Positions 7,447-24,450 of a DNA stretch of 64,000 nt are shown here, one piece after another. The stretch lies in assembly GCF_963668385.1 (NCBI RefSeq), contig NZ_OY764327.1, forward strand, positions 4,932,501 through 4,996,500. The letters run 5' to 3'. Each line of letters starts with the position of its first letter. The stretch's first letter is position 1. The notes beneath the pieces are model-generated. The model was not told the DNA's origin and searched no databases. It worked only from the letters and a program-made list of their open reading frames with translations. The DNA is from an uncultured Carboxylicivirga sp. (lineage in GTDB: Bacteria; Bacteroidota; Bacteroidia; Bacteroidales; Marinilabiliaceae). A program made the position numbers and the translations under genes.

Positions 7447-8739
7447 TTAATAATCGATAATCCTCAAATAATTTAATGCCTCGTTTAAAACAACATCATT
7501 ACCCTCCAGAATATTTTCGATGGTAGGCTCCAAAATCAAATCGGGATGAATATAAGTATATTGCTCTCCATTACTAAACAGCTTTTGAACTGCAATACTT
7601 GCGTATGCATTTAATGGCAACCTAATTTTCAAAGGATAGGTCGCACTACCTTGTGATGGTTTGCCTATTATATATGGATTGCAAACTGACTTCAAACACA
7701 CAATAAATGTTTCGGCTTCAGATATCGTACTTTCGTTTACTAAAACTACAACTGGAAGATCTATAAATTTATTGTTATCCTTTACAAATTTTGCAGTGTC
7801 TGATTTAAATGCCGAATTATTAAAAAACTCACTATTCGTTGAATTAAATTGCCCATTTGCTCTTTTATAGCCGTTATTGATTCTTACCATAACAGAATAA
7901 GGATATATGACACTATCCTTAGAAAAGTACTTAGATACATCGGATCGAATACAAATGCCTCCCCGACAACCCCGTAAATCAAAAATAACTCCCTTAGTGG
8001 TCTTAATGCTATCTATTACACTTTCAAAGCTTTTTAATGGATTTGGATTAAAGTTATTTCCAAAATTCACATATGATATGTTATCCATTATTTCGTAATG
8101 GAAGTTGTTAAAACTCTTTCGAGGAAACTTTATCTCATTCCAATCATAGGAGTCTGTTTTGTTTACCATCAAATTCAAATTTTTCACTTCCCCCTTTAGT
8201 GTTTTTATTTGAAGTGAATATTTGGTTCCGTCCTCTTCATAAAATATTTCTCTCAGCAGATGATGATATTTTGCATGAGTTGGATAATAGTGATCATTAA
8301 ACATTTTATCCATAAGTTCAAATACATCCGTATCGTTAACTTTTAATATTTGGCTACCCAATGGAATTAATTCACGTAACTGTTTACCAACACCAATTAC
8401 ATACAGCTTGTTATGTGTATAGAAAGGCCAAATCTTTAATCCAACTTTCTGATGAATTTCCTTTGGTATATATACATATGTGTGCCCCTCATGAAACACA
8501 GCCAAAAAACGTGATAGCATTTTAAAATACTCTTTGTCCGACTTTAAACTATCCACCTTCTGTAAATTTACATAATACAAGCTATCCCATGCTACATTTT
8601 GCGAATCGAAATATGGATAATTATACTCTACTTCTTTCCATATTTGAGATAAACCTTCTATCTTTTGTTCTTTAGTAAGTTGTTGCGAGACCCCACATAT
8701 ACTGATGAAACTAAAAATTACAAGAATATTGATTCTCAT
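7447..8739 (-). CDS. S41-family peptidase, exported (module 1)
   Basis: A 430-residue protein with a signal peptide (about 1-19). An N-terminal helical region carries FHEGHTYV at 82-89, a typical S41 element before the PDZ-like part. The catalytic-domain strand VIFDLRGCRGG is at 251-261, the likely nucleophile Ser340 is in TISEAET, and IIGKPSQG is at 358-364. The usual TxGKG lysine motif is changed (PSQGSAT), so the base residue is uncertain. It is the last gene of its operon: its start overlaps the end of the C39 gene by 29 bases, which implies translational coupling. Cleavage of the leader-bearing protein of the same operon is inferred from context only. Confidence 0.85.
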   Translation of the reverse strand: MRINILVIFSFISICGVSQQLTKEQKIEGLSQIWKEVEYNYPYFDSQNVAWDSLYYVNLQKVDSLKSDKEYFKMLSRFLAVFHEGHTYVYIPKEIHQKVGLKIWPFYTHNKLYVIGVGKQLRELIPLGSQILKVNDTDVFELMDKMFNDHYYPTHAKYHHLLREIFYEEDGTKYSLQIKTLKGEVKNLNLMVNKTDSYDWNEIKFPRKSFNNFHYEIMDNISYVNFGNNFNPNPLKSFESVIDSIKTTKGVIFDLRGCRGGICIRSDVSKYFSKDSVIYPYSVMVRINNGYKRANGQFNSTNSEFFNNSAFKSDTAKFVKDNNKFIDLPVVVLVNESTISEAETFIVCLKSVCNPYIIGKPSQGSATYPLKIRLPLNAYASIAVQKLFSNGEQYTYIHPDLILEPTIENILEGNDVVLNEALNYLRIIDY

Positions 8740-9436
8740 TAAGCAATTTTTTAAATTTATTTATTACATAATCCTCAATCTTAAATTCAGCTTGCAATTT
8801 AAAAGTTACATATATATTCTTTTTATTTGCTTTCTTTAAATCATCGAGGATTTCTGATATATTTTTTAATGTTTTATTGTCATAATTTATACGAACTACC
8901 ACCTCTGAAAATTGGGAAATATCAATTATATTTTTCAAAATCTGTACATAAGTTCCTTTTCCATTTTGATTACGAACCTTAAATGGCTCATCTTCTCTAT
9001 TGTAAAATTCTGGTGTAGGTTCTAACAATAAACAAACACCTACATCCTCATCTTCTTGTTTGGTAGAAGCCCAGCTTGTTATAAATTCGTTATGGGTATA
9101 AGTTACTTTACCATGCGCTGGATCTGCCACCCAAACTTTATCCCCCTCTATTTTATAAACAACTACAAAATGCTGCTGATTCCAATGAGCAATAAATGGA
9201 ACCGGATGTTCCTTAACTAACTTATCAAAACCAACATTTACTCCCATGGTTCTGAAACCTATAGCTTCAGCCGCATCACTAATTCCCAACATCGAAACAC
9301 CTTCCCGGGTAATATAGCTATGTTTTCGCAGTGTGTCTAAAGAATGATAACGACCATAATATTTGGATATCATTTGTAGACAAGTTGGACCACAATCCAT
9401 CGTATCTGGTTGGATAATTAATGTAATCTCACTCAT
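8711..9436 (-). CDS. Stand-alone C39 (double-glycine leader) peptidase domain with a novel C-terminal tail
   Basis: Residues 1-145 read like the N-terminal peptidase domain of Bacteroidota C39 ABC exporters: oxyanion Gln9, nucleophile Cys15 (DCGPTCL), His89 (HWNQQHFVVVY) and Asp105 (ADPAHG) are all present, and the segment ends in LLLEPTPEFY. In the usual 700-plus-residue exporter, membrane and ATPase domains follow. Here there is instead an approximately 90-residue charged tail (VVVRINYDNKTLK...YSCNF) with no membrane segment. The family cuts leaders after Gly-Gly in the cytoplasm. The gene overlaps both neighbouring S41 genes (8 bases upstream, 29 downstream). It could be a truncated exporter, but an intact active site and tight coupling argue for function. 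Confidence 0.88.
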   Translation of the reverse strand: MSEITLIIQPDTMDCGPTCLQMISKYYGRYHSLDTLRKHSYITREGVSMLGISDAAEAIGFRTMGVNVGFDKLVKEHPVPFIAHWNQQHFVVVYKIEGDKVWVADPAHGKVTYTHNEFITSWASTKQEDEDVGVCLLLEPTPEFYNREDEPFKVRNQNGKGTYVQILKNIIDISQFSEVVVRINYDNKTLKNISEILDDLKKANKKNIYVTFKLQAEFKIEDYVINKFKKLLNENQYSCNF

Positions 9437-10790
9437 TACCCAACGATTTACTTCTTTGATTTATTAAATCAACTACAAAATTAAACGCATCTTTTTCATT
9501 CACTTGAAAATCTGGCTTAACTCCAGAATTTTCAAATTCTCCAACATCATAAAATTCTTTACAAGAAACATCAAGATATGCATTCATTTTAGGAATCCGA
9601 AGCTGAATAATTTCTCCAAAATCAATTCCCTTACCTCCAGTCTCTTCTCCGATTATTGTTCCTAATTTATAATTCTGAAAAATTCTTACAAACATATCTG
9701 CACTTGAGTAGGTTTGATGGCTGGTTAACAAATAGGTATTACCCTTAAATCCATGCTTTTGAGGCTGTATATCTCCTCCATTAATCTCCTGTATCTCTCC
9801 ATCTTCTAGTTTTAAGTATGGAATTAAAGCCTTGATGAAAAAATAGCTGAATTTACCAAAATAGTCTTTATAAAAAGCTTCCATTTCTGCACTTTTTTTG
9901 ACACTTATTTTCTTATAAGATTTTAATGGTTTATCACTTATATAACTAAGTATATCATCCCCCAGATTCGAATTACCTCCGTCAGCATTTCTAAAATCAA
10001 TTATTAGATCAGATACTCCTTTCTTTTGCATTTGTCTAAAAGAACTTTTCAAAAGTTTTTTAAATGGAATTCCCTTATCATACATAACATACATAGTTAA
10101 AACACCCATTCCATCCTTAATTTCAAAGGTGTAATTATCCTGATCATTATTCATTGTTTGCAAATACTTTATTGAATGAATTTTTTCGTTACGTATTACC
10201 CCATCTCTTAAATACTTTACATTATATACTGAATCCCTCAAGTTATACTTGCTCCATAAAATATGAGGTAAACTACTGAACAAACATTGTAACTGGTATA
10301 TTTCACTTTCGGCACTTACATATTGCTGTTCTTCTTTAATAATTCTTTCAAAAGTCAAACCGTTTACTTCAAGTAGTTCATCACCAAATTTAAGAGGTGA
10401 AGAACTACTATAATTTTTCTTAACAATTACTTTTTCATTTTGATTAACTTCCAATTCAATTGGAAATATTTCTCCATTATTCTGTAAGTGTTTATCCCAA
10501 GCTTCATCAAAAAGGAAGAGTTGCGTATGCCCATCTTTTAATAGTGCAATATTCTTTTGCAGAAGCATACATAGCTTTTGCTCAGTTATCGAATCTGAAA
10601 TTTCTTCTTTTAATAAGTTAATATTTGAATAAAAAGTATCTTTCGGACAATATTTAAAAGCATTAACATGCACTCTTTCTAATGATTGTGTAACAAAATC
10701 AATTGTTTCAATGGCTTGATGTCGATCAACTTTTTGAGCAGAGATGGTAAAAATGTTCATCACTATCAATAACTGTACTATAAATCTCAT
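9429..10790 (-). CDS. S41-family peptidase, exported (module 1)
   Basis: A 453-residue protein with a signal peptide (cleavage near ISAQ, about residue 19). S41 landmarks are DGHTQL at 86-91, a PDZ-like segment (LKFGDELLEVNG, 133-144), IIDFRNADGGNS at 263-274, the nucleophile region QTYSSADMF at 359-367 (Ser362 or Ser363) and GEETGGKG at 381-388. This motif is closer to the classical TxGKG than in its neighbour. It lies 82 bases downstream of the leader-bearing DUF6624-like gene, and its stop overlaps the start of the C39 gene. Two S41 peptidases around a C39 peptidase in one operon is unusual. The substrate is unknown. Confidence 0.87.
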   Translation of the reverse strand: MRFIVQLLIVMNIFTISAQKVDRHQAIETIDFVTQSLERVHVNAFKYCPKDTFYSNINLLKEEISDSITEQKLCMLLQKNIALLKDGHTQLFLFDEAWDKHLQNNGEIFPIELEVNQNEKVIVKKNYSSSSPLKFGDELLEVNGLTFERIIKEEQQYVSAESEIYQLQCLFSSLPHILWSKYNLRDSVYNVKYLRDGVIRNEKIHSIKYLQTMNNDQDNYTFEIKDGMGVLTMYVMYDKGIPFKKLLKSSFRQMQKKGVSDLIIDFRNADGGNSNLGDDILSYISDKPLKSYKKISVKKSAEMEAFYKDYFGKFSYFFIKALIPYLKLEDGEIQEINGGDIQPQKHGFKGNTYLLTSHQTYSSADMFVRIFQNYKLGTIIGEETGGKGIDFGEIIQLRIPKMNAYLDVSCKEFYDVGEFENSGVKPDFQVNEKDAFNFVVDLINQRSKSLGNE

Positions 10791-10872: not shown

Positions 10873-11910
10873 TTAATATTTTTCATAACTAACTGTTATT
10901 GAATTACCTTTTCTTTTAATTTGTAAATCTTGTATACTACACATCCCTATATTCTTCCGATTTTTATTATAATATTCCAAGTCTTCCTTTTTAAGGTTTG
11001 ATCCCAAGTAAGGTATTGTATAATATTTTTGCTTCTTATTATAGAAAAACAAATGTCTATCAATTATAGAGGCATAGATATATGGATTAATTCCTCCCGA
11101 TTCTAGAGCTTCAAATAAAATATCACCCATTTCTACGTTTAATGAATCATTATCATTATGAAGCAAAATAAATGTAGCGTTACTAGCTGTTTGTTTGCCT
11201 ACAAGCTTTTCATGGGGAAATCCTACTTCATTTATAATTTCTTTAAGCAGCTTAATATTTAAGCTATCAACATGCTGCCACTCTCCAAAAAGTTGTTTCG
11301 CTTTATCATAGTCTTTTCCCTCATTTAAATTAGGATTATCATGGTAACATTTTTGTAAATATTTTTTGGCACTCATATATTTACTTCCCCTAACTCTTTG
11401 ATCTTCCTTATATATACTATCTATTTGGATCGCTACTTTATTTTTGTTTATCAATTTATATGCTCTTATTATTGAATCACAAACAGATATAAATTTCTTG
11501 TCTCTACCTTTTTTTGCACTACTTCTTGCATTTTTTGCAATATCAATATGAACATAATCAACCTTCTCAAAAGCCTTCTTATAGTAATATACACAACTAT
11601 CAATATTTTTTACCTTTCTGTAATCCTTAGCCTTTGCAATATCTCTGTAATACGACAAATAATTAGATTGTCCGAACCCTTGTTCGCATATCATTAAGAA
11701 TACTATAACACATAAATTTTTCAACAACACCATTTTAACTTTTTTTGTCCACCAATGAAATGTTTTAACATCGCCAGAATAACACGTACAAGTATCACCA
11801 TTTCCAAATTTACCTGATCCAGTTTCCTCTTTCTTTCCTGCCCTAATGCTATTTAAATCTGATATTTGATTCTTTTGAAACTTCTCAATTTTCAATCTTT
11901 CTAATTTCAT
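10873..11910 (-). CDS. Leader-peptide/Sec-signal/DUF6624-like fusion protein (module 1)
   Basis: A 345-residue frame with three parts. Residues 1-25 (MKLERLKIEKFQ...LNSIRAG) resemble the leader of Bacteroidota double-glycine RiPP precursors, with AG in place of GG, and 38-48 (NGDTCTCYSGD) look like a core peptide. An internal Met60 (codon at 11733) begins a full Sec signal (LLKNLCVIVFLMICEQGFGQ). The mature part has TPR-like helices (YYKKAFEK) and then a DUF6624-like domain (EDQRVR at 169-174, LLKEIINEVGFP 221-232, His251, DRHLF 284-288). No stop separates the leader part from the rest. Either one long product is made or two nested products arise from two starts; the same layout recurs at 22655-23626. 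The domain name is from memory of the family pattern. Confidence 0.7.
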   Translation of the reverse strand: MKLERLKIEKFQKNQISDLNSIRAGKKEETGSGKFGNGDTCTCYSGDVKTFHWWTKKVKMVLLKNLCVIVFLMICEQGFGQSNYLSYYRDIAKAKDYRKVKNIDSCVYYYKKAFEKVDYVHIDIAKNARSSAKKGRDKKFISVCDSIIRAYKLINKNKVAIQIDSIYKEDQRVRGSKYMSAKKYLQKCYHDNPNLNEGKDYDKAKQLFGEWQHVDSLNIKLLKEIINEVGFPHEKLVGKQTASNATFILLHNDNDSLNVEMGDILFEALESGGINPYIYASIIDRHLFFYNKKQKYYTIPYLGSNLKKEDLEYYNKNRKNIGMCSIQDLQIKRKGNSITVSYEKY

Positions 11911-11921
11911 TTTATTAGATT

Positions 11922-12038
11922 TTAATCACAACCGCAATTCAACGAATTATCAAAAATTACATTTTTATACTTTACACTACCATCAAACTTAAATACATCC
12001 TTTGAATAATGTATTATTTCATCACCATTACAAATCGT
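11922..12038 (-). pseudogene. C-terminal remnant of a RiPP-like precursor peptide
   Basis: Between two stops the minus strand encodes 38 residues ending NCGCD. The start TICNGDEIIHYSKDVFKF lines up with GNGDTCTCYSGDVKTF of the neighbouring leader-bearing protein (shared N-G-D....Y-S-x-D-V..F). There is no start codon, because the frame opens directly after the TGA that ends the broken HTH gene. It is best read as a peptide-precursor 3' end left after a deletion. It is short and weakly supported on its own; the match to its neighbour is the main argument. Confidence 0.4.
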
Positions 12039-12316
12039 TCAACTTCCTGTTCTTTGCCTCTTTACTCCTTTGACAAAAGCCAGCTCAGAATGACATGACC
12101 TGTCCACTCTATCAAAAGTAGATACTAAATAATAAGACTGATAAGTTTCGGAGTAATAAAATCAGCACCTCTTTCCTTTGGTGCTTTTAGGTAATCGTAA
12201 AGAGTTCTTTCGCTAATTTGTAATTTTTCGGATAACTGACAAGGTGTACCAGTCGCTCTCAGTTTCATTAAAGCAATAATGCGCTCAAAGCGCTCAAGTT
12301 GTTCTATAAACTTCAT
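12039..12316 (-). pseudogene. HTH DNA-binding protein, frameshifted
   Basis: Residues 1-52 (MKFIEQLERFERI... SERTLYDYLKAPKERGADF) match the intact HTH protein at 23697-24023 almost residue for residue. One A is missing relative to that copy in the run near 12159-12162, so the frame leaves after GADF and stops at 12125 (63 codons). Restoring the base gives FYYSETYQSYYLVSTF, as in the intact copy, and then an unrelated tail to TGA at 12039-12041. In the intact form this is a winged/HTH_11-type regulator. Both the shift and the foreign tail suggest decay. Confidence 0.75.
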
Positions 12317-12480
12317 TAAAATTATAAGTTAAGGTTGTATTTAGCATTGCTACCTTTTATAAATAAAAATGATAACAGATACATCTGTTAATTGCAAAAA
12401 CGTTAAAACGTAACATGTATTTTCAAAAAAAATTTACCATAATAAAGTATTAAACTAGTTAAGAGAAGTTTGAGTAGTAA
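12317..12480 (-). promoter_or_regulatory. Module promoter region conserved with 24024-24180
   Basis: The 5' flanks of the two HTH genes are clearly related: both contain TTAATTGCAAAAAC, TTAAAACGTAACATGTATTT, TCAAAAAAAATTTA and AATAAAGTATT in the same order and spacing. The modules therefore share a duplicated control region as well as genes. No exact TAnnTTTG was found. Confidence 0.55.
12374..12389. promoter_or_regulatory. Perfect 16-bp palindrome upstream of the HTH gene (candidate operator)
   Basis: AACAGAT-AC-ATCTGTT lies about 58 bases before the HTH start. Next to it on the minus strand upstream is TTTTTGC, a possible -33 element, so a factor bound here would cover the spacer. The matching site before the second HTH copy (24074-24090) is imperfect. 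A role as autoregulatory operator is inferred. Confidence 0.4.
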
Positions 12481-12488
12481 AAAATAAA

Positions 12489-12996
12489 AGCTGATTGCTG
12501 TTGGCTTATGGATAATAGCTTATTTTAGCTTAATTATTATTCGATAATTTTTAATCGTGAGTTGAAAATTAGAAAAAGACCAACAGTTCTACTCGTTTAA
12601 TTTACGGACTTCGGACTCTTTGCTTCGGGCTTGGTAAAAGCTTCGAACAACCTTTGTTATTGCCGCAGGTAATTATACAATCTCAATAACTTTAATATGT
12701 GCGGCAATGAATAGAACCTTATATTCCCCGGGTTCTTTCGATCCTTCGTCAAGCTCAGGTCTCATTCACACCGGGCTATCAATATTGAACTCTTATGGAG
12801 TTCTCAGTGGACTAAGAATAGCTATTGTTCCAAGCATGCTAATTGCGGACTTTGCGCTTAGGACTTAGGGCTTATATAATCGGAAATTGATAAATCAATA
12901 ATTGGCCAATTGGAAATCGAATAATTGATCATCTTTTATGTTACATAGCACTTACGTACTACGCTGTTACAAACGTCACTCCGTGACGGGCTGCAA
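12489..12996. repeat. Composite repeat A-B-C, copy 2
   Basis: Unit A is here shortened by an internal deletion; ATTCGATAATTTTTAATCGT is shared with 6620-6640. Units B and C (12618-12996) are nearly identical to 6870-7250. It sits downstream of the gene ending at 13137. The remaining bases to 13136 are the same word-like text with no gene. Confidence 0.85.
12945..12994. repeat. Dispersed repeat C, copy 2
   Basis: Core TTACAAAC flanked by AGCACTTACGTACTACGCT and a GTCAC-tcc-GTGAC hairpin. Copy 3 of the same unit closes composite repeat 1 at 7197-7248. Confidence 0.8.
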
Positions 12997-15134: not shown

Positions 15135-16064
15135 CTATTCCCATGGCCTAATTTTATCATCATATTTAAGTCCGGTTATATCCAAATGTTCTTTCCAGTT
15201 TCTAAGACCTATTTCTGCCCTCGACGAATCAATCTGATCAATATTAATTAATGGAAAGGCATAACTCCCATCGATATAAGCAAACGAGCATGATCCGTAC
15301 ATCTGTTCCCACTTACCCGATTTAATGCAATCATAATCAACTATACTTGCATACTTATCGGGGTATAAATCACCATTCATTACAGCCTGCTTTAGAATAT
15401 CATAAAAATATACCTTATTGGTATCTGGGTCCATATGACGAAAGAAAACGTCGTTAAAGTTATCTTCATTATCTCCCCACAATAAATCCTCTCCAATAAC
15501 GGAATAGCCAAAGTACCCTTTTTCGTTAATCAATTGCTTTAGTTTCTCAAGTATACGATAATCATTGGTTTTACGTATACTGTCCAAATTTTCAACCTCA
15601 CTTTCTAATAAGCTTCGGTACTTTTGATCTTCTTGTATTAATTCTACAATTTGCTTACGATAAACCGTATCAATACTGGCAAAATATTCCAGTCGTTGAC
15701 TATCATACTTTGGAAAATATTCATCCCAATTATCTCGATATTCCGAATTAATAAGAGAATCGCAACACAGATATTTTTTACTGGCACCAAGCTTTATAGC
15801 CAACTCCATTGTTTCATTAATATCTATCGTATCAAACGATTTAATTTTTATGGAAATCAGTGTTCTCAAATCTCTTAAAAATGGTCGTTCAACCATCTTA
15901 GTGGCTTTCTCATATTGAGCTATAGCCTGCAAAGTATCTCCTTCAAACAAAGAATATTCAGCATTATTTATCATTCTATAATACGATAAATAAATCTGCT
16001 TATCGGGTGAAGAACATTGAATCAAAAACAGAGTTATACATATTATTAAAATACTGTTTTTCAT
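15135..16064 (-). CDS. DUF6624-like lipoprotein without RiPP leader
   Basis: A 309-residue protein with lipobox LIQC (Cys17). It is a paralogue of the two leader-bearing proteins: it shares YLSYYR near the start of the mature chain, TPR-like helices (AIAQYEKATKM), EDQKYR, KLKQLINEKGYFGYSVIG and the C-terminal SSRAEIGL motif (compare SCRATIGM at 22.7 kb). Here the protein begins directly with the lipoprotein signal, which makes it a useful control for the fused architecture. It sits 55 bases downstream of the OmpA-type gene. DUF6624 itself has no defined biochemical role that I know of. Confidence 0.7.
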   Translation of the reverse strand: MKNSILIICITLFLIQCSSPDKQIYLSYYRMINNAEYSLFEGDTLQAIAQYEKATKMVERPFLRDLRTLISIKIKSFDTIDINETMELAIKLGASKKYLCCDSLINSEYRDNWDEYFPKYDSQRLEYFASIDTVYRKQIVELIQEDQKYRSLLESEVENLDSIRKTNDYRILEKLKQLINEKGYFGYSVIGEDLLWGDNEDNFNDVFFRHMDPDTNKVYFYDILKQAVMNGDLYPDKYASIVDYDCIKSGKWEQMYGSCSFAYIDGSYAFPLINIDQIDSSRAEIGLRNWKEHLDITGLKYDDKIRPWE

Positions 16065-19018: not shown

Positions 19019-22000
19019 CTAATTAAGATGAGCTATAATAAAGGAGATAATAAAGGCTTCTTCCCTCACATAATCATAATAGCTGGCATTTCCTCCATGG
19101 CCTCCTCCATCTTTTGTTATTAGTAATATATCACTATCTGATTGATTGTTTTCTCTTAATCGTGCCACACACTTGGCACTCTCCCAACAATAACATCTAT
19201 CATCGGTTAACGAAGTTACATAGAGCATATTTGGATATTTCCGAGCTTTAATATTATCGTAAGGATTGTATTTTAGTACATTGTTAAAATCTTTTGCATT
19301 GCCTTTAACATCTCCATACTCGTTATATAAAACTTCAACACCCTCTTGGTAAGCACTCGAAATTAAATCTACTGTAGGATAATCCAAAATTACTGTATTA
19401 AAAAGTTCCGGTGATTGATTTGCTACAACACCCATTAATAATCCCCCTGCACTACCTCCACGAGCAACGATTTTATCTTTGGCTGCCCACTTATTATCTA
19501 TTATATACTTTACAGCTGCAATAAAATCATTATATGTATTTTGCTTATTTAATCTTCGTGCCGCCTTCCACCAGTTAATTCCTAAATCATTACCTCCTCT
19601 AACATGCGGATATACTATTAAAATACCGTTATCTAACAAATACCTGTCACTTACCGAAAGATATGGTTCTACAGACGCTCCGTTTGATCCATATGCTTTT
19701 ACAACAGCCGGATTGGTTCCGTTACGCTTAATTCTATGGGTATAAACAATTGAAACAGGTATTTGAACACCATCATCAGAGGTTGCATAAACCAATTGAT
19801 GTTTGTATTTACCTTCGTAGTTGTCAGCTTTTTGTTCACTTAATTTTAATTGGTTTAAATCGTACTGGTATTTTACTCCATGCTTTGTAAATGATTCATA
19901 AGAAAAATTCAAATACCGTTGATCTTCCGATTGATTAATGTTCTTTAGTTGATATACATCTTCTTTAAAACCAATCTTATCCAACTCTTTCAAATCACTC
20001 TTGCGTAATATTATTATGTATTCTTTTAGATTTTCACTGGTTTTTATAGCTATATACTTATCAAACAAAATATAGGATAGAAAAAGTGCCTCTGGTTTTT
20101 CAAAAATGGTTTGTAATGTATTACTTGAATCATTTCGATAATAGAGCCCATAATTGGGAATAAACTCATTACTCATCATCCAAAATCCTCCATTAAAATG
20201 CGTTACATTCACATCAACGCTATCTTTAAATGGATAAACTTCGTTTACACTTCCTTTTAACGATGCATTTATATAATAACAATGGTTGGCTTCCATACTT
20301 GACTCTGAGATCACAAAGAAAGTATTATCAATAGATTTACCAATAGTTAACCAATTCTTCCTATTTTTTATCTCAAACAAGGTATCTGTTCTGGCAGGAT
20401 CCTCAACTGAAGAAGCAATAATTTTATCACTCCCCTGACCTTCCAGTCCGTTGCGGTACACAATCTTCTTTGCATCATTTGACCAATAAATTTGTTCCGA
20501 AGCATCTATGATACCTGTATGTATTACTTTGTTATTCTGTAAGTCTTTCACAAAAACAGTGTGAATAATATCTCCCGTAAAATCAACTAAATAGAATATG
20601 TATTTATTATCAAGACTGGGCTGCGCTAAATTAATCTCGTAATAATCATGGCCGATCGATAATTCATTTACATCAAGTAAAGTCTCCTTTTTTTGTGTAA
20701 TTACATTTCTTCTATAATAATTGTATACCATGGAGCCTTTTAATCGTTGCCAGTAATACACATAATTACCTACCAAGGTACTATCCTGTTCTTCGGCACT
20801 GGTTCTTTGTCTTTTAATTAGTTCGCGATAAACATTATCAATTAACGATTTATATAGTATTTGCTTATTCGCTGAATAATCATTTTCAGCATTCAAATAC
20901 TCCTGTTGTCTGCCATCGCTATAATTTTCCATCCAATGGTAAGGATCATACCTTTTTACACCAAATAATGTATCACATACTATTTCTTTTATAGCCACAG
21001 GAGGTCGCAGCGTATCGTTATAAACATTATTTTCCGAAAACTGCTTTTTTAATGAATCATACCTCTCCAGATTATTTCTAATACTATCCTGAAGTTGAGT
21101 ATAAGGCGGAATATTTTGTTTTACCCAAAAATCAGAATCAAAACCATTTTCAAAATCATAGAAAATATTGTTGTACTGGTTCTCAAATAATTTATTAGAA
21201 TCCAGTCTTTGTATGGTATCGGGTATTACTTCTGTAATAAATAACTCTCTATTGGATGTATACAAGAACGATTTCTTTTCTTCGCTGAAATATAAGCGAA
21301 CTGGCCATGTTTTTTTACAGTGCTTCAAATACCATTTATCTCCGTTTTCTTCATACTCAATATTTGTTTGCGAGCCGTAAAATGTATTACTCACTTTACG
21401 AATAGTTTTCTTTTTACCAAAACCTATTTGATGCTTAGAGGTATATCCTCCTGGCTTTTTAATTACAACATTGTAATTGATAGATGCAATAGCATATGAA
21501 TGAGTATCGATATAAATTAGTCCTGTAAAATAAGCTTGTGTAGAGGGTATCGCTGCTTTTGTATCTTTGTTGGGATACATCCCTATTTTAAATAATCGAT
21601 GAGACCCTTTCTGAACAATATCCAGTAATTTAAAGTGATGACGTTTAAACCATATCTTATCAAAAAAATGCACGTCATAACTTCCATACTTTACTTTATC
21701 CTTCGCAATTACAGATAGTGGGCCTCCAAATAAACTTACTTCTCGGGTTCCCTGCCTCATGTCTAAACTTGAACGGGCTCCTAAAATTTCAACCTTATCT
21801 CCCTTGGGAGTACAAATATTGTCATAAGCACCATCTCCTTCCAGTCCTATGGGTCGGGTATATTTAAAAACAGAAGACTGATTGGAATTAATATGCCACA
21901 TAATAGCCTCGATACTTGCTTCATCGCTTCTGAATTCATTAGTATAAGGAGTTAATTGAAACTTACAAATTGCTTCGCTCATTTTTATGTAACTACTATC

Positions 22001-22447
22001 CTCTTTAATTAACTCGCGATAAAAACCTTTTAATTGATAAAACTCTTGTGGGTAGTTTTCCGGAATCTTACTAATGGCTTTATGCAAAATCTCCAACGGA
22101 TCATTTTTTCGAACTTCAACTTCAGACAGTTGATAAATGGATGGTTCTAATAACACTTTATTACATTTCTGCAACTTAGCAACAGACATAACCACTTCGT
22201 TATAACCTATTGCAGAAAAAGCAAGACTATCAGTTTCTTTTAGGTATGGATAAACAAAAGAAAACTGGCCATCACTATTGGAGGCCGTTCCCATAAAAGT
22301 ACCCACTAATTGAATTGACACATATGGAATAGCATCTCCTGTTTCTGCATCTATTATTACGCCTGTAAGTTCACCTATATTACTACTATAAGCTTGCAAC
22401 AATATAAGTAAATTCAATGCTGTACAAAGAATCTTTTTGATCATCAT
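19019..22447 (-). CDS. Fusion: carboxypeptidase-regulatory-domain protein + oligopeptidase B-like S9 peptidase (module 2)
   Basis: This 1142-residue protein has a signal peptide (1-22). Residues 24-112 are a CarboxypepD_reg-like beta-sandwich (GVIIDAETGDAIPYVSIQL). Residues 113-470 match the body usually attached to it in stand-alone Bacteroidota proteins. Residues 482-1142 are a complete oligopeptidase-B/prolyl-oligopeptidase unit: opening motif RYDPYHWMENY at 499-509, propeller, and catalytic Ser999 (GGSAGG), Asp1082 (LTDDR) and His1117 (GGGHGG). The fused halves normally occur as separate genes of about 460 and 680 residues. It lies 207 bases downstream of the leader-bearing gene of module 2, in the position held by S41/C39 genes in module 1. 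The specificity is unknown; the family cuts after basic residues or proline. Confidence 0.88.
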   Translation of the reverse strand: MMIKKILCTALNLLILLQAYSSNIGELTGVIIDAETGDAIPYVSIQLVGTFMGTASNSDGQFSFVYPYLKETDSLAFSAIGYNEVVMSVAKLQKCNKVLLEPSIYQLSEVEVRKNDPLEILHKAISKIPENYPQEFYQLKGFYRELIKEDSSYIKMSEAICKFQLTPYTNEFRSDEASIEAIMWHINSNQSSVFKYTRPIGLEGDGAYDNICTPKGDKVEILGARSSLDMRQGTREVSLFGGPLSVIAKDKVKYGSYDVHFFDKIWFKRHHFKLLDIVQKGSHRLFKIGMYPNKDTKAAIPSTQAYFTGLIYIDTHSYAIASINYNVVIKKPGGYTSKHQIGFGKKKTIRKVSNTFYGSQTNIEYEENGDKWYLKHCKKTWPVRLYFSEEKKSFLYTSNRELFITEVIPDTIQRLDSNKLFENQYNNIFYDFENGFDSDFWVKQNIPPYTQLQDSIRNNLERYDSLKKQFSENNVYNDTLRPPVAIKEIVCDTLFGVKRYDPYHWMENYSDGRQQEYLNAENDYSANKQILYKSLIDNVYRELIKRQRTSAEEQDSTLVGNYVYYWQRLKGSMVYNYYRRNVITQKKETLLDVNELSIGHDYYEINLAQPSLDNKYIFYLVDFTGDIIHTVFVKDLQNNKVIHTGIIDASEQIYWSNDAKKIVYRNGLEGQGSDKIIASSVEDPARTDTLFEIKNRKNWLTIGKSIDNTFFVISESSMEANHCYYINASLKGSVNEVYPFKDSVDVNVTHFNGGFWMMSNEFIPNYGLYYRNDSSNTLQTIFEKPEALFLSYILFDKYIAIKTSENLKEYIIILRKSDLKELDKIGFKEDVYQLKNINQSEDQRYLNFSYESFTKHGVKYQYDLNQLKLSEQKADNYEGKYKHQLVYATSDDGVQIPVSIVYTHRIKRNGTNPAVVKAYGSNGASVEPYLSVSDRYLLDNGILIVYPHVRGGNDLGINWWKAARRLNKQNTYNDFIAAVKYIIDNKWAAKDKIVARGGSAGGLLMGVVANQSPELFNTVILDYPTVDLISSAYQEGVEVLYNEYGDVKGNAKDFNNVLKYNPYDNIKARKYPNMLYVTSLTDDRCYCWESAKCVARLRENNQSDSDILLITKDGGGHGGNASYYDYVREEAFIISFIIAHLN

Positions 22448-22654: not shown

Positions 22655-23626
22655 TTAATAACCTTTAGGGAGTTCTGCATTAATAGTTTTTGCTCTAAAA
22701 AATAAAGGAGCCATACCAATTGTTGCCCTACAACTATCCACTCCATTAATATCTTTAAATGGAATAAACTCCTTCCCTGAAGATGTTAGCATTATCAGAA
22801 GCCCATACGTTTGCCATCCTTCATAAGCGTAGGTATACCTATCAGCAATAAATGCATAATCGCTATACTTAATGTTACCTTTTGCTGCTTCTGCGAGTAA
22901 AAGTTCTTTAAAATAATTATCCCAAGCGTACTTAGTACTGTTATTTGTTGTAATATGCATTATCAGAGCAAGTACTTTATTGGTATGAAAACCTACATTA
23001 TTAAAGCCCGGAAAACCATATTCTTCAATTAGAGCTCTTAATTTTACATAGTTTATAGAGTCGGCTAAACTCATTTGATGTGCCATCGAGGTTTCTTGTA
23101 AGGGTTGCCTAACAAACTGATCAACACCAAACATCTCAAGTATTTCTTCTAACCCTTGATACTGCTCATAAAGGTTAGTTTTAGAATTCAAGTGATAACT
23201 ACCTATACCCAAATCATCGATAAACTCTTTATTAAAACCATTATCAAACAATGTCTGAAGACACTTCTCAATCATAGCTGTATCACCAACTTGATGGTAA
23301 ATGTCAGAAGCTAATATATTATCAAAACATATAAATTTATTAGCGCATTCATATGCCTTATTTAAATAGATCAATGATGAATCAATAAAATTTTGGCTCT
23401 TATAATATTCTGCTTTTTCTATATTATAATTATACAGTTTAAAGTCCTGAGAATATGTACTCAAACACATCGTAATAAATAAGACGAAAATTAAATATCT
23501 CATAAAAACAAATTTATTAGAGGAGGATGTTGTATTAATTTCTTTTCCTCCTCGTAAATTTAAAAGTTGCTTTTTAGCTAATTGTTCTTCTTTACTAAAC
23601 TCTTCAAGATTAAATTTCATAATCAT
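22655..23626 (-). CDS. Leader-peptide/Sec-signal/DUF6624-like fusion protein (module 2)
   Basis: A 323-residue frame. Residues 3-27 (MKFNLEEFSKEE...LLNLRGG) have the LxxEFxxxxL...GG form of double-glycine leaders, followed by KEINTTSSSNKFVF. Met42 (codon at 23503) starts a typical Sec signal (RYLIFVLFITMCLSTYSQ). TPR-like helices (SLIYLNKAYE) and a DUF6624-like domain follow (KLRALIEEYGFPGFNNVG, ADRYTY, SCRATIGMAP). It aligns in architecture and spacing with 10873-11910, and the leaders share the pattern E-x-F-x-K...(I/L)-R-(A/G)-G-K. It follows the HTH gene by 70 bases. The start could also be the third residue (ATG at 23620). Whether the leader is cleaved, and by what, is unknown; the C39 gene of module 1 is the only candidate nearby. 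Confidence 0.7.
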   Translation of the reverse strand: MIMKFNLEEFSKEEQLAKKQLLNLRGGKEINTTSSSNKFVFMRYLIFVLFITMCLSTYSQDFKLYNYNIEKAEYYKSQNFIDSSLIYLNKAYECANKFICFDNILASDIYHQVGDTAMIEKCLQTLFDNGFNKEFIDDLGIGSYHLNSKTNLYEQYQGLEEILEMFGVDQFVRQPLQETSMAHQMSLADSINYVKLRALIEEYGFPGFNNVGFHTNKVLALIMHITTNNSTKYAWDNYFKELLLAEAAKGNIKYSDYAFIADRYTYAYEGWQTYGLLIMLTSSGKEFIPFKDINGVDSCRATIGMAPLFFRAKTINAELPKGY

Positions 23627-23696
23627 ATTTTATTATACCTACTCATTACACTATTGACCCTTTTCGGCATCCGGGGTGCTTTCTCTTCTGGCCAGT

Positions 23697-24023
23697 TTAG
23701 TTAAACACATAACAATTATAAGGCCTTTCACTGCGAAATTTTTGCAGTGATATAAAAAAACGTTTTCCTCCCCTTGTTTGCGATAATTCTAATTTACTGC
23801 AACAACCAAAGTTTATTTCAAAAGGAGTAAGTAAATAATAGGATTGATAAGTATCGGAGTAATAAAAATCAGCACCTCTTTCCTTTAGTGCTTTTAGGTA
23901 ATCGTAAAGAGTTCTTTCGCTAATTTGCAATTTTTCGGCTAACTGATTAAGTGTACCAGTTGCCCGCAGGCTCATTAAGGTAATAATACGCTCAAAGCGT
24001 TCAAGCTGTTCTATAAACTTCAT
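23697..24023 (-). CDS. Small HTH_11-type DNA-binding regulator (module 2)
   Basis: A 108-residue protein. Residues 1-52 form a helical HTH (RATGTLNQLAEKLQISERTLYDYLKALKERG, recognition helix SERTLYDYLKALKE), followed by a wing-like strand pair (DFYYSDTYQSYYLLTPFEINFG). The tail after FGCC (KLELSQTRGGKRFF...) is not typical of the family, which usually ends shortly after the wing, so the 3' end may have been remodelled. It is first in the module 2 operon and shares its promoter region with the broken copy at 12.3 kb. A role as regulator of the peptide/peptidase genes is inferred from position. Confidence 0.8.
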   Translation of the reverse strand: MKFIEQLERFERIITLMSLRATGTLNQLAEKLQISERTLYDYLKALKERGADFYYSDTYQSYYLLTPFEINFGCCSKLELSQTRGGKRFFISLQKFRSERPYNCYVFN

Positions 24024-24180
24024 TAAATTTTAAGTTAAGGTTATTCATTAACATTGCTATCTTAAAAAAATGATCTCAGATGCCTCTGTTAATTGCAAAA
24101 ACATTAAAACGTAACATGTATTTTCAAAAAAAATTTATCAACAATAAAGTATTGAACTAGCTAAGAGAACTTTGTGTAGT
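24024..24180 (-). promoter_or_regulatory. Module 2 promoter region, conserved with 12317-12480
   Basis: It carries the same ordered words as the module 1 promoter (TTAATTGCAAAAAC, AAAACGTAACATGTATTTTC, AATAAAGTATTGAACTAG). The palindrome found in module 1 is degenerate here (CTCAGATGCCTCTGTT, 24075-24090). Confidence 0.5.
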
Positions 24181-24189
24181 GAAAAAAAA

Positions 24190-24450
24190 ATGATAGAAAT
24201 TAGAGGTTAGAAGATAGAATAATGCTGGTAACCTTATATGTGTAATCTACGGACTTTAGGCTTCTACAATCGCAAATTGATAAATAGAAATTAGATGCTA
24301 GTGGTTAGAGGTTAGAAAAAGACCAACAGTTCTACTCGTGTAATCTGCGGACTTCGGGCTTTGCGCTTCGGACTTGTTAAGGCTTCAACCAACCTTTATT
24401 GTTGCCGCAGGTAATTATGCAATCTAAATAACATTGATATGTACATCACT
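24190..24450. repeat. Partial composite repeat (A words and the start of B)
   Basis: AGAGGTTAGAAGATAGA, CTACGGACTTTAGGC, ACCAACAGTTCTACTCGTG, CGGACTTCGGGCTTTGCGC and then GTTGCCGCAGGTAATTATGC, after which unit B is lost. It lies upstream of module 2 rather than downstream. Confidence 0.7.

Follow-up and report, generated by a model that had tools for sequence, protein, structure and literature searches.

In the window, by which we mean the whole stretch of 64,000 nucleotides analysed here, two DUF6624-like proteins are each preceded, in the same uninterrupted frame, by the leader of a RiPP precursor, and sequence comparison indicates that in both copies this leader is real and stands in frame with a Sec-type protein. 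We consider it slightly better than an even chance that both are RiPP precursors joined in frame to an adjacent secreted companion, with nested products likely and the leader partly vestigial. The joined unit was probably a whole precursor, leader and core together, and not a bare leader, because a CTC stretch follows the leader in one of the window proteins and CSCSC follows it in a separate fusion from Bacteroides pyogenes. This reading draws on the frame itself, the likeness of the leaders to those of other genomes, the unfused state of relatives, the independent B. pyogenes case and the start-like context at both starts of each window protein.

Anatomy of the fused proteins

The earlier note had described a leader at residues 3-27 of P0001, followed without a stop by a Sec signal at Met42 and a DUF6624-like body, and the same order behind a diverged leader at 10873-11910; both descriptions hold, the first as a single uninterrupted frame of 323 residues. 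The parts of the two proteins, and a third relative in the window, are as follows.

22655..23626, minus strand: P0001, fused open reading frame of 323 amino acids with GG leader, short stretch, Sec signal, middle region and DUF6624 in that order (frame; PF20329, 27.7 bits)
23546..23620, minus strand: leader of P0001, residues 3-27, ending LRGG (leader HMM rank 2 of 583 ORFs)
23504..23545, minus strand: residues 28-41 of P0001, a short polar stretch from the GG to Met42, putative core or linker (sequence)
23447..23503, minus strand: internal start Met42 of P0001 with its Sec signal, residues 42-60 (sequence; start context)
22703..23146, minus strand: DUF6624 domain of P0001, residues 161-308 (PF20329 profile)
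10873..11910, minus strand: paralogue, fused open reading frame of 345 amino acids in the same order as P0001 (PF20329, 24.7 bits)
11836..11910, minus strand: residues 1-25 of the paralogue, its leader, with IRAG at the end (first of 583 ORFs with the leader HMM)
11734..11835, minus strand: residues 26-59 of the paralogue with the likely core GDTCTCYSG (likeness to the C-x-C cores of other precursors)
11668..11733, minus strand: internal start Met60 of the paralogue with its Sec signal (sequence; start context)
15135..16064, minus strand: third DUF6624-like protein with a lipoprotein-type start and no leader (PF20329, 18.0 bits, below the cut-off of 27)

From Met42 onward P0001 reads MRYLIFVLFITMCLSTYSQ, a Sec-type signal (such signals were assigned by inspection and with a crude rule of our own), and continues into the middle region and DUF6624. 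In the paralogue, 34 residues that include CTC lie between the IRAG leader and the Sec-type signal at Met60. The PF20329 score of P0001 is above the gathering cut-off of 27 and that of the paralogue is under it; apart from these two and the protein at 15135-16064, the 6.27-Mb genome has no match at E 1.

The middle region of P0001 is TPR-like solely through its family profile: a Pfam scan of P0001 itself found no TPR, and when solved structures were compared with the DUF6624 profile the region matched designed and natural TPR repeats. For the DUF6624 part the solved structures gave nothing convincing (ExbD, E 0.37 and worse), and the structure model of P0001, built from three sequences, is poor (mean pLDDT 41.4). 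The genome-contig collection held no close homologue of the whole protein, and a whole-protein search of 149 genomes, its own included, returned outside its own genome just partial matches, in two genomes.

Likeness of the leaders to RiPP precursor leaders

The earlier note had pointed to RiPP-precursor profiles as a check on the leader, and the outcome depends on the profile. With TIGR04149, P0001 scores only 11.5 bits against a curated cut-off of 25 and so stays below the level of a precursor call, and the paralogue gives no match; P0001 has the GG-ending N-terminal leader that characterises this family (LRGG), and the paralogue ends in AG instead. In its own 6.27-Mb genome TIGR04149 has three matches, the best of which is the leader of P0001, with an E of 0.27 that is weak alone. 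We also built a leader HMM from 45 leaders, all from other genomes and with no window sequence among them (59 loci gave 47 candidate precursors, to which five were added and from which seven wrong or doubtful ones were dropped by hand). Over the 583 ORFs of the window this model gave its best score to the paralogue (11.1 bits) and its second best to P0001 (8.3 bits); shuffled sequences scored as high in 0 of 20,000 cases for the paralogue and 15 of 20,000 for P0001.

The same model was run over 963 ORFs from 1.34 Mb of fetched DNA, comprising distinct ORFs of at least 180 residues and some that run off the end of a locus. A B. pyogenes protein came first (21.9 bits), followed by the paralogue (12.0) and P0001 (10.8), an ordinary lipoprotein signal (10.6) and two long ordinary precursors (10.6 and 7.0), a result to be taken as a ranking and not as an unbiased rate, since the loci were partly picked by leader searches and one of the leaders in the model comes from an unfused sibling in B. 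pyogenes. That the likeness is due to chance could be argued from the score of P0001 under the TIGR04149 cut-off, its genome-wide E of 0.27 and the lipoprotein signal that almost equals it. We nevertheless give chance hardly any credence, as the two rankings speak against it: ranks 1 and 2 of 583, and 2 and 3 of 963, fall exactly on the two window DUF6624 proteins with an extra N-terminus.

An independent fusion in Bacteroides pyogenes

A TIGR04149 search through 393 genomes of the order at E 0.02 listed 75 matches. Five of those listed lie in frames of at least 150 residues: one is a fusion, two are precursors roughly 200 residues long, and in two the match falls within an unrelated frame. 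In 395 genomes of the phylum the corresponding search gave a list of 73 matches, the same B. pyogenes fusion among them, and seven further loci from the phylum, including the six longest other frames, contained no second fusion on reading. The fusion is present in two strains, DSM 19673 and DSM 20611, which differ at 7 of 981 nucleotides; none of the seven differences falls in the first 165 nucleotides, and 7 per 981 are too few for rates.

In this frame both halves pass their thresholds, the precursor with 29.2 bits for TIGR04149 (cut-off 25) and the GLPGLI-family Sec protein with 184.4 bits (cut-off 50), and the precursor core is Cys-rich, with CSCSC. Units of an unfused precursor and a GLPGLI-like sibling stand in the same array, and the distance from the GG to the next start is about 25 nt shorter in the fused unit than in one unfused sibling. 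At E 1e-20, relatives of the fused protein occur in 44 of the 151 genomes of its family; among the relatives listed, the match begins at residue 1 only in the two B. pyogenes strains, and a relative from genome G898, listed from residue 15, lacks the leader on reading. Viral contigs searched with the B. pyogenes protein gave no match.

The DSM 19673 genome (99% complete) has no C39 match at E 1e-5, a search in which 8 of 14 control genomes do match. It holds TIGR04149 precursors over the cut-off (locus L122) yet no C39 match, and leader removal and export may there differ from the transporter route. Two unusually long precursor-like proteins of 197 and 207 amino acids, in which a GG leader but no Sec signal was seen, were encountered at L123 6661-7254 and L124 6287-6910.

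Unfused relatives and gene neighbourhoods

DUF6624 is present in 39 of the 393 genomes of the order, the window's own included. Thirty DUF6624 loci were fetched, of which two (L069 and L091) were dropped for a wrong ORF; some of the remaining 28 show no clear signal (for example L064, L072, L080 and L086), and in none of the 28 readable loci does a leader precede the DUF6624 protein. In the tree the sister of P0001, with support 98/97, is a protein of genome G417 that is unfused and has a stop directly before its start. This sister scores 22.6 bits for DUF6624, below the cut-off, and adjoins both grasp-with-spasm maturases. For the paralogue the nearest row, weakly, is that of genome G044, with a tree placement of 44/33.

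Because no DUF6624 locus among the 28 has a leader and the G417 sister is unfused, the sequences point to a recent join in the window. The two window joins look independent, as the sister of P0001 is unfused; the placement of the paralogue being weak, a single older join may instead lie behind both proteins. The earlier note had treated homologues without conserved upstream coding as evidence against the fusion: such homologues are largely what was found, and they do not undo the join. The same fusion, for which it proposed a search in related genomes, was absent with DUF6624 from the 28 loci, and the TIGR04149 search yielded the analogous GLPGLI join in B. pyogenes.

A precursor followed by a secreted protein is a common arrangement, since 21 of 42 precursors have a Sec-like ORF within 400 nt downstream under our crude rule, at least two of whose calls (L119 and L166) look wrong; only precursors with at least 450 nt of downstream sequence were counted, which left out 5 of 47. 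DUF6624 relatives adjoin grasp-with-spasm maturases scoring over the cut-off in three genomes, on four contigs. One study reports that DUF6624 is highly frequent in graspetide groups 18, 20, 23 and 42 (PMC13097080), and another describes signal-bearing companions of unknown role in grasp-with-spasm clusters, which may or may not belong to the DUF6624 family (PMC8939145).

The RiPP locus of the window

Around the two fused genes lie the following features.

8711..9436, minus strand: C39 peptidase domain (residues 6-123) without a transporter and with a radical SAM maturase-like end (about residues 155-220) (PF03412, 125.9 bits; NCBIfam matches)
9429..10790, minus strand: S41 peptidase-family protein (PF03572, 70.2 bits)
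7447..8739, minus strand: S41 peptidase-family protein (PF03572, 54.3 bits)
23697..24023, minus strand: small HTH regulator, encoded upstream of P0001, that has a GG motif close to the C-terminus (PF08279, 29.8 bits)
12125..12316, minus strand: frame-broken HTH copy upstream of the paralogue (86% DNA identity)
11922..12038, minus strand: open stretch with NCGCD at its end, perhaps left over from the core of another precursor (three-frame reading)

Downstream of the paralogue come, in order, an S41 protein, the C39 domain protein and the other S41 protein. The C39 domain is complete (positions 4-122 of the 133 of PF03412) in a protein of just 241 amino acids that has neither the membrane nor the ATPase domain of a PCAT. 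A relative in genome G007, of the same genus (locus L042), has 730 amino acids, matches transporter models from end to end and shares 78% identity with the window protein over residues 8-154. Its cluster runs HTH, precursor, S41, precursor, radical SAM, transporter, HlyD; since the maturase gene there lies upstream of the transporter, the order of C39 domain and inner maturase piece at 8711-9436 is unlike a simple deletion product of such a cluster. The window C39 domain has its Cys, His and Asp motifs. With silent sites near saturation, which makes the test weak, the window C39 branch carries 20 silent and 24 replacing changes against 27 and 19 on the G007 branch, and the domain seems not clearly relaxed or decaying. 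Another C39 transporter, of 717 residues, is encoded elsewhere in the genome.

The grasp-with-spasm ATP-grasp TIGR04192 had no match in the window's genome at E 1e-5, a search in which the control genomes were likewise silent, and an NCBIfam scan of 16 window proteins found no such ATP-grasp; of a radical SAM maturase, just the maturase-like piece was found near the locus. From its gene content the RiPP island of the window looks decayed. The suggestion of the earlier note that the leader marks the protein for modification or leader-peptidase cleavage finds no support here, where the transporter part is missing, only a maturase-like piece is left and a C39 domain remains.

A promoter and HTH block is duplicated (11850-12500 and 23600-24200) with 86% DNA identity over 329 of 381 columns, and each copy precedes a different leader-DUF6624 gene. 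A GG motif with leader-like spacing near the C-terminus occurs in 8 of the 17 HTH proteins compared, the broken window copy being one of the 17: at 23697-24023 of the window, L042 11166-11489, L045 4644-4988, 13211-13555 and 17291-17635, L046 5377-5748, L043 11180-11536 and L131 7513-7869. The leader HMM gives these motifs weak scores, none above 5.7 bits and a negative one for the regulator of the window; if an HTH regulator did carry a C39 site and shed a peptide from its C-terminus, that would be odd. No fused leader was seen on reading three further loci of the genome that have an HTH match. At another place in the genome (L226, C1:215000-225000) an HTH gene is followed by an array of GLPGLI-like proteins in which no precursor was recognised. 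The window also encodes, at 19019-22447, a protein of 1142 amino acids with a CarboxypepD_reg-like N-terminus and a C-terminal prolyl oligopeptidase (S9).

Start sites

The score of each start context was compared with those of 301 Sec-type starts and of 5,945 internal Met codons. In P0001 the context of Met3 is better than that of Met1, which corrects the assumed start; Met3 stands at percentile 98.6 of the internal Met codons and Met42 at 94.6, and in the paralogue Met1 reaches 99.8 and Met60 93.5. Among real starts Met42 lies at the 29th and Met60 at the 26th percentile. The internal start of the B. pyogenes fusion is at percentile 75.7 of internal Met codons and at the 8th among real starts. 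An ATG is found exactly at the Sec start in all three fusions. Out-of-frame stops just before Met42 and Met60, considered as a sign of indels, were set aside as probably too common in AT-rich DNA.

Origin and possible products of the fusions

How the join arose, the use of both starts and the partly vestigial state of the leader are what we infer. A small RiPP precursor gene would have stood just upstream of a gene for a Sec protein, as it often does in Bacteroidota, and loss of the stop codon and spacer between precursor and companion would have placed the two in one frame. The internal ATG and the Sec signal are still present, so that a secreted DUF6624 protein is most probably made from Met42 or Met60, and initiation at the upstream Met would give a longer chimera with leader and core ahead of the signal. 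Nested products are suggested by the start-like context at upstream and internal starts; of the two options in the earlier note, nested products and a leader that marks the protein for modification or cleavage, the anatomy favours the former, with Met3 and Met42, and Met1 and Met60, all scoring like starts. Since the search turned up no intact maturase or transporter next to the leader, we regard it as partly vestigial. Against this reading stand the low percentiles of the internal starts among real starts (lowest in B. pyogenes), and two apparently independent joins in one genome are more than rare neutral loss would lead one to expect.

The join may be real and yet a relic of gene-cluster decay, not a working device. 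In its extreme form both joins would be chance events of no consequence in a RiPP island on its way out: the upstream start would not be used, and the Sec protein would be the sole product, if anything is made at all. The truncated C39 protein with its radical SAM piece, the broken HTH copy, the possible precursor remnant and the unfused homologues all fit such a history; the good start context at Met3 and Met1, the leaders that still score as leaders and the open DUF6624 frames do not, and we think mere decay rather unlikely. An artefact is far less probable still. The earlier note had allowed for a sequencing error that removed a stop in both copies, and the one-base length difference that breaks one HTH copy indicates that small indels, real or not, do occur here; two separate sites would nonetheless need hitting, the genome is a single contig, 100% complete, whose long neighbouring frames are open, and the B. 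pyogenes fusion is present in two assemblies, all of which weighs heavily against a deleted stop.

At the other extreme the chimera would work as such: a cytoplasmic C39 peptidase cuts after the GG, Sec exports the rest in place of the lost ABC transporter, and the core stays ahead of the signal until signal peptidase acts. The transporter-less C39 protein is the second gene downstream of the paralogue, has its Cys, His and Asp motifs and shows no clear decay (20/24 against 27/19 silent/replacing, silent sites near saturation); in the window a peptidase would have lost its transporter as its substrate gained a Sec signal, and all three fusions keep the frame open across leader, core and signal. 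Signal peptidase, however, would take the core off with the signal, so that it would not be kept on the exported protein, and in the window proteins a cut after the GG would still have the signal preceded by 14 to 34 residues. Because B. pyogenes DSM 19673 has no C39 match, C39 followed by Sec cannot be the general meaning of such fusions. We therefore find a working chimera distinctly unlikely. A two-step export, in which the freed C39 trims the leader and Sec takes over the export of the core joined to its partner, so that the fusion swaps ABC for Sec, would need a different peptidase in B. pyogenes, and we hold it to be more doubtful again.

If both starts are used in the joined precursor and companion, one gene would yield a RiPP precursor chimera and a secreted companion tied by nested starts; if the chimera works, a double-glycine leader can stand before a Sec signal. 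Either way, DUF6624 and GLPGLI proteins are indicated as close partners of RiPP precursors.

Comparison with known systems

In the open-licence literature we found no report of a GG precursor fused before a Sec signal, and the window proteins resemble several known systems in part. With TIGR04149 precursors they share the form of the leader, its GG or AG end and, in the paralogue, the C-x-C stretch; they differ in scoring below the cut-off and in running in frame into a Sec protein. The link to grasp-with-spasm graspetide clusters with DUF6624 or signal-bearing companions (PMC8939145, PMC13097080) lies in the sister of P0001 that adjoins both maturases, whereas separate genes encode the precursor and the companion in the loci seen, and no such ATP-grasp was found in the window's genome (with a silent control). 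The C39 domains of PCAT peptide exporters likewise occur beside GG leaders, but the one in the window has no part of the transporter and is followed, at the end of the protein, by a radical SAM-like piece. The MNIO RiPP-lipoprotein hybrids and large TPR precursors are also RiPP precursors with a Sec or lipoprotein signal; in those systems the signal is as a rule N-terminal and the modified motif C-terminal (PMC12636315), whereas in the window proteins the GG leader comes before the Sec signal.
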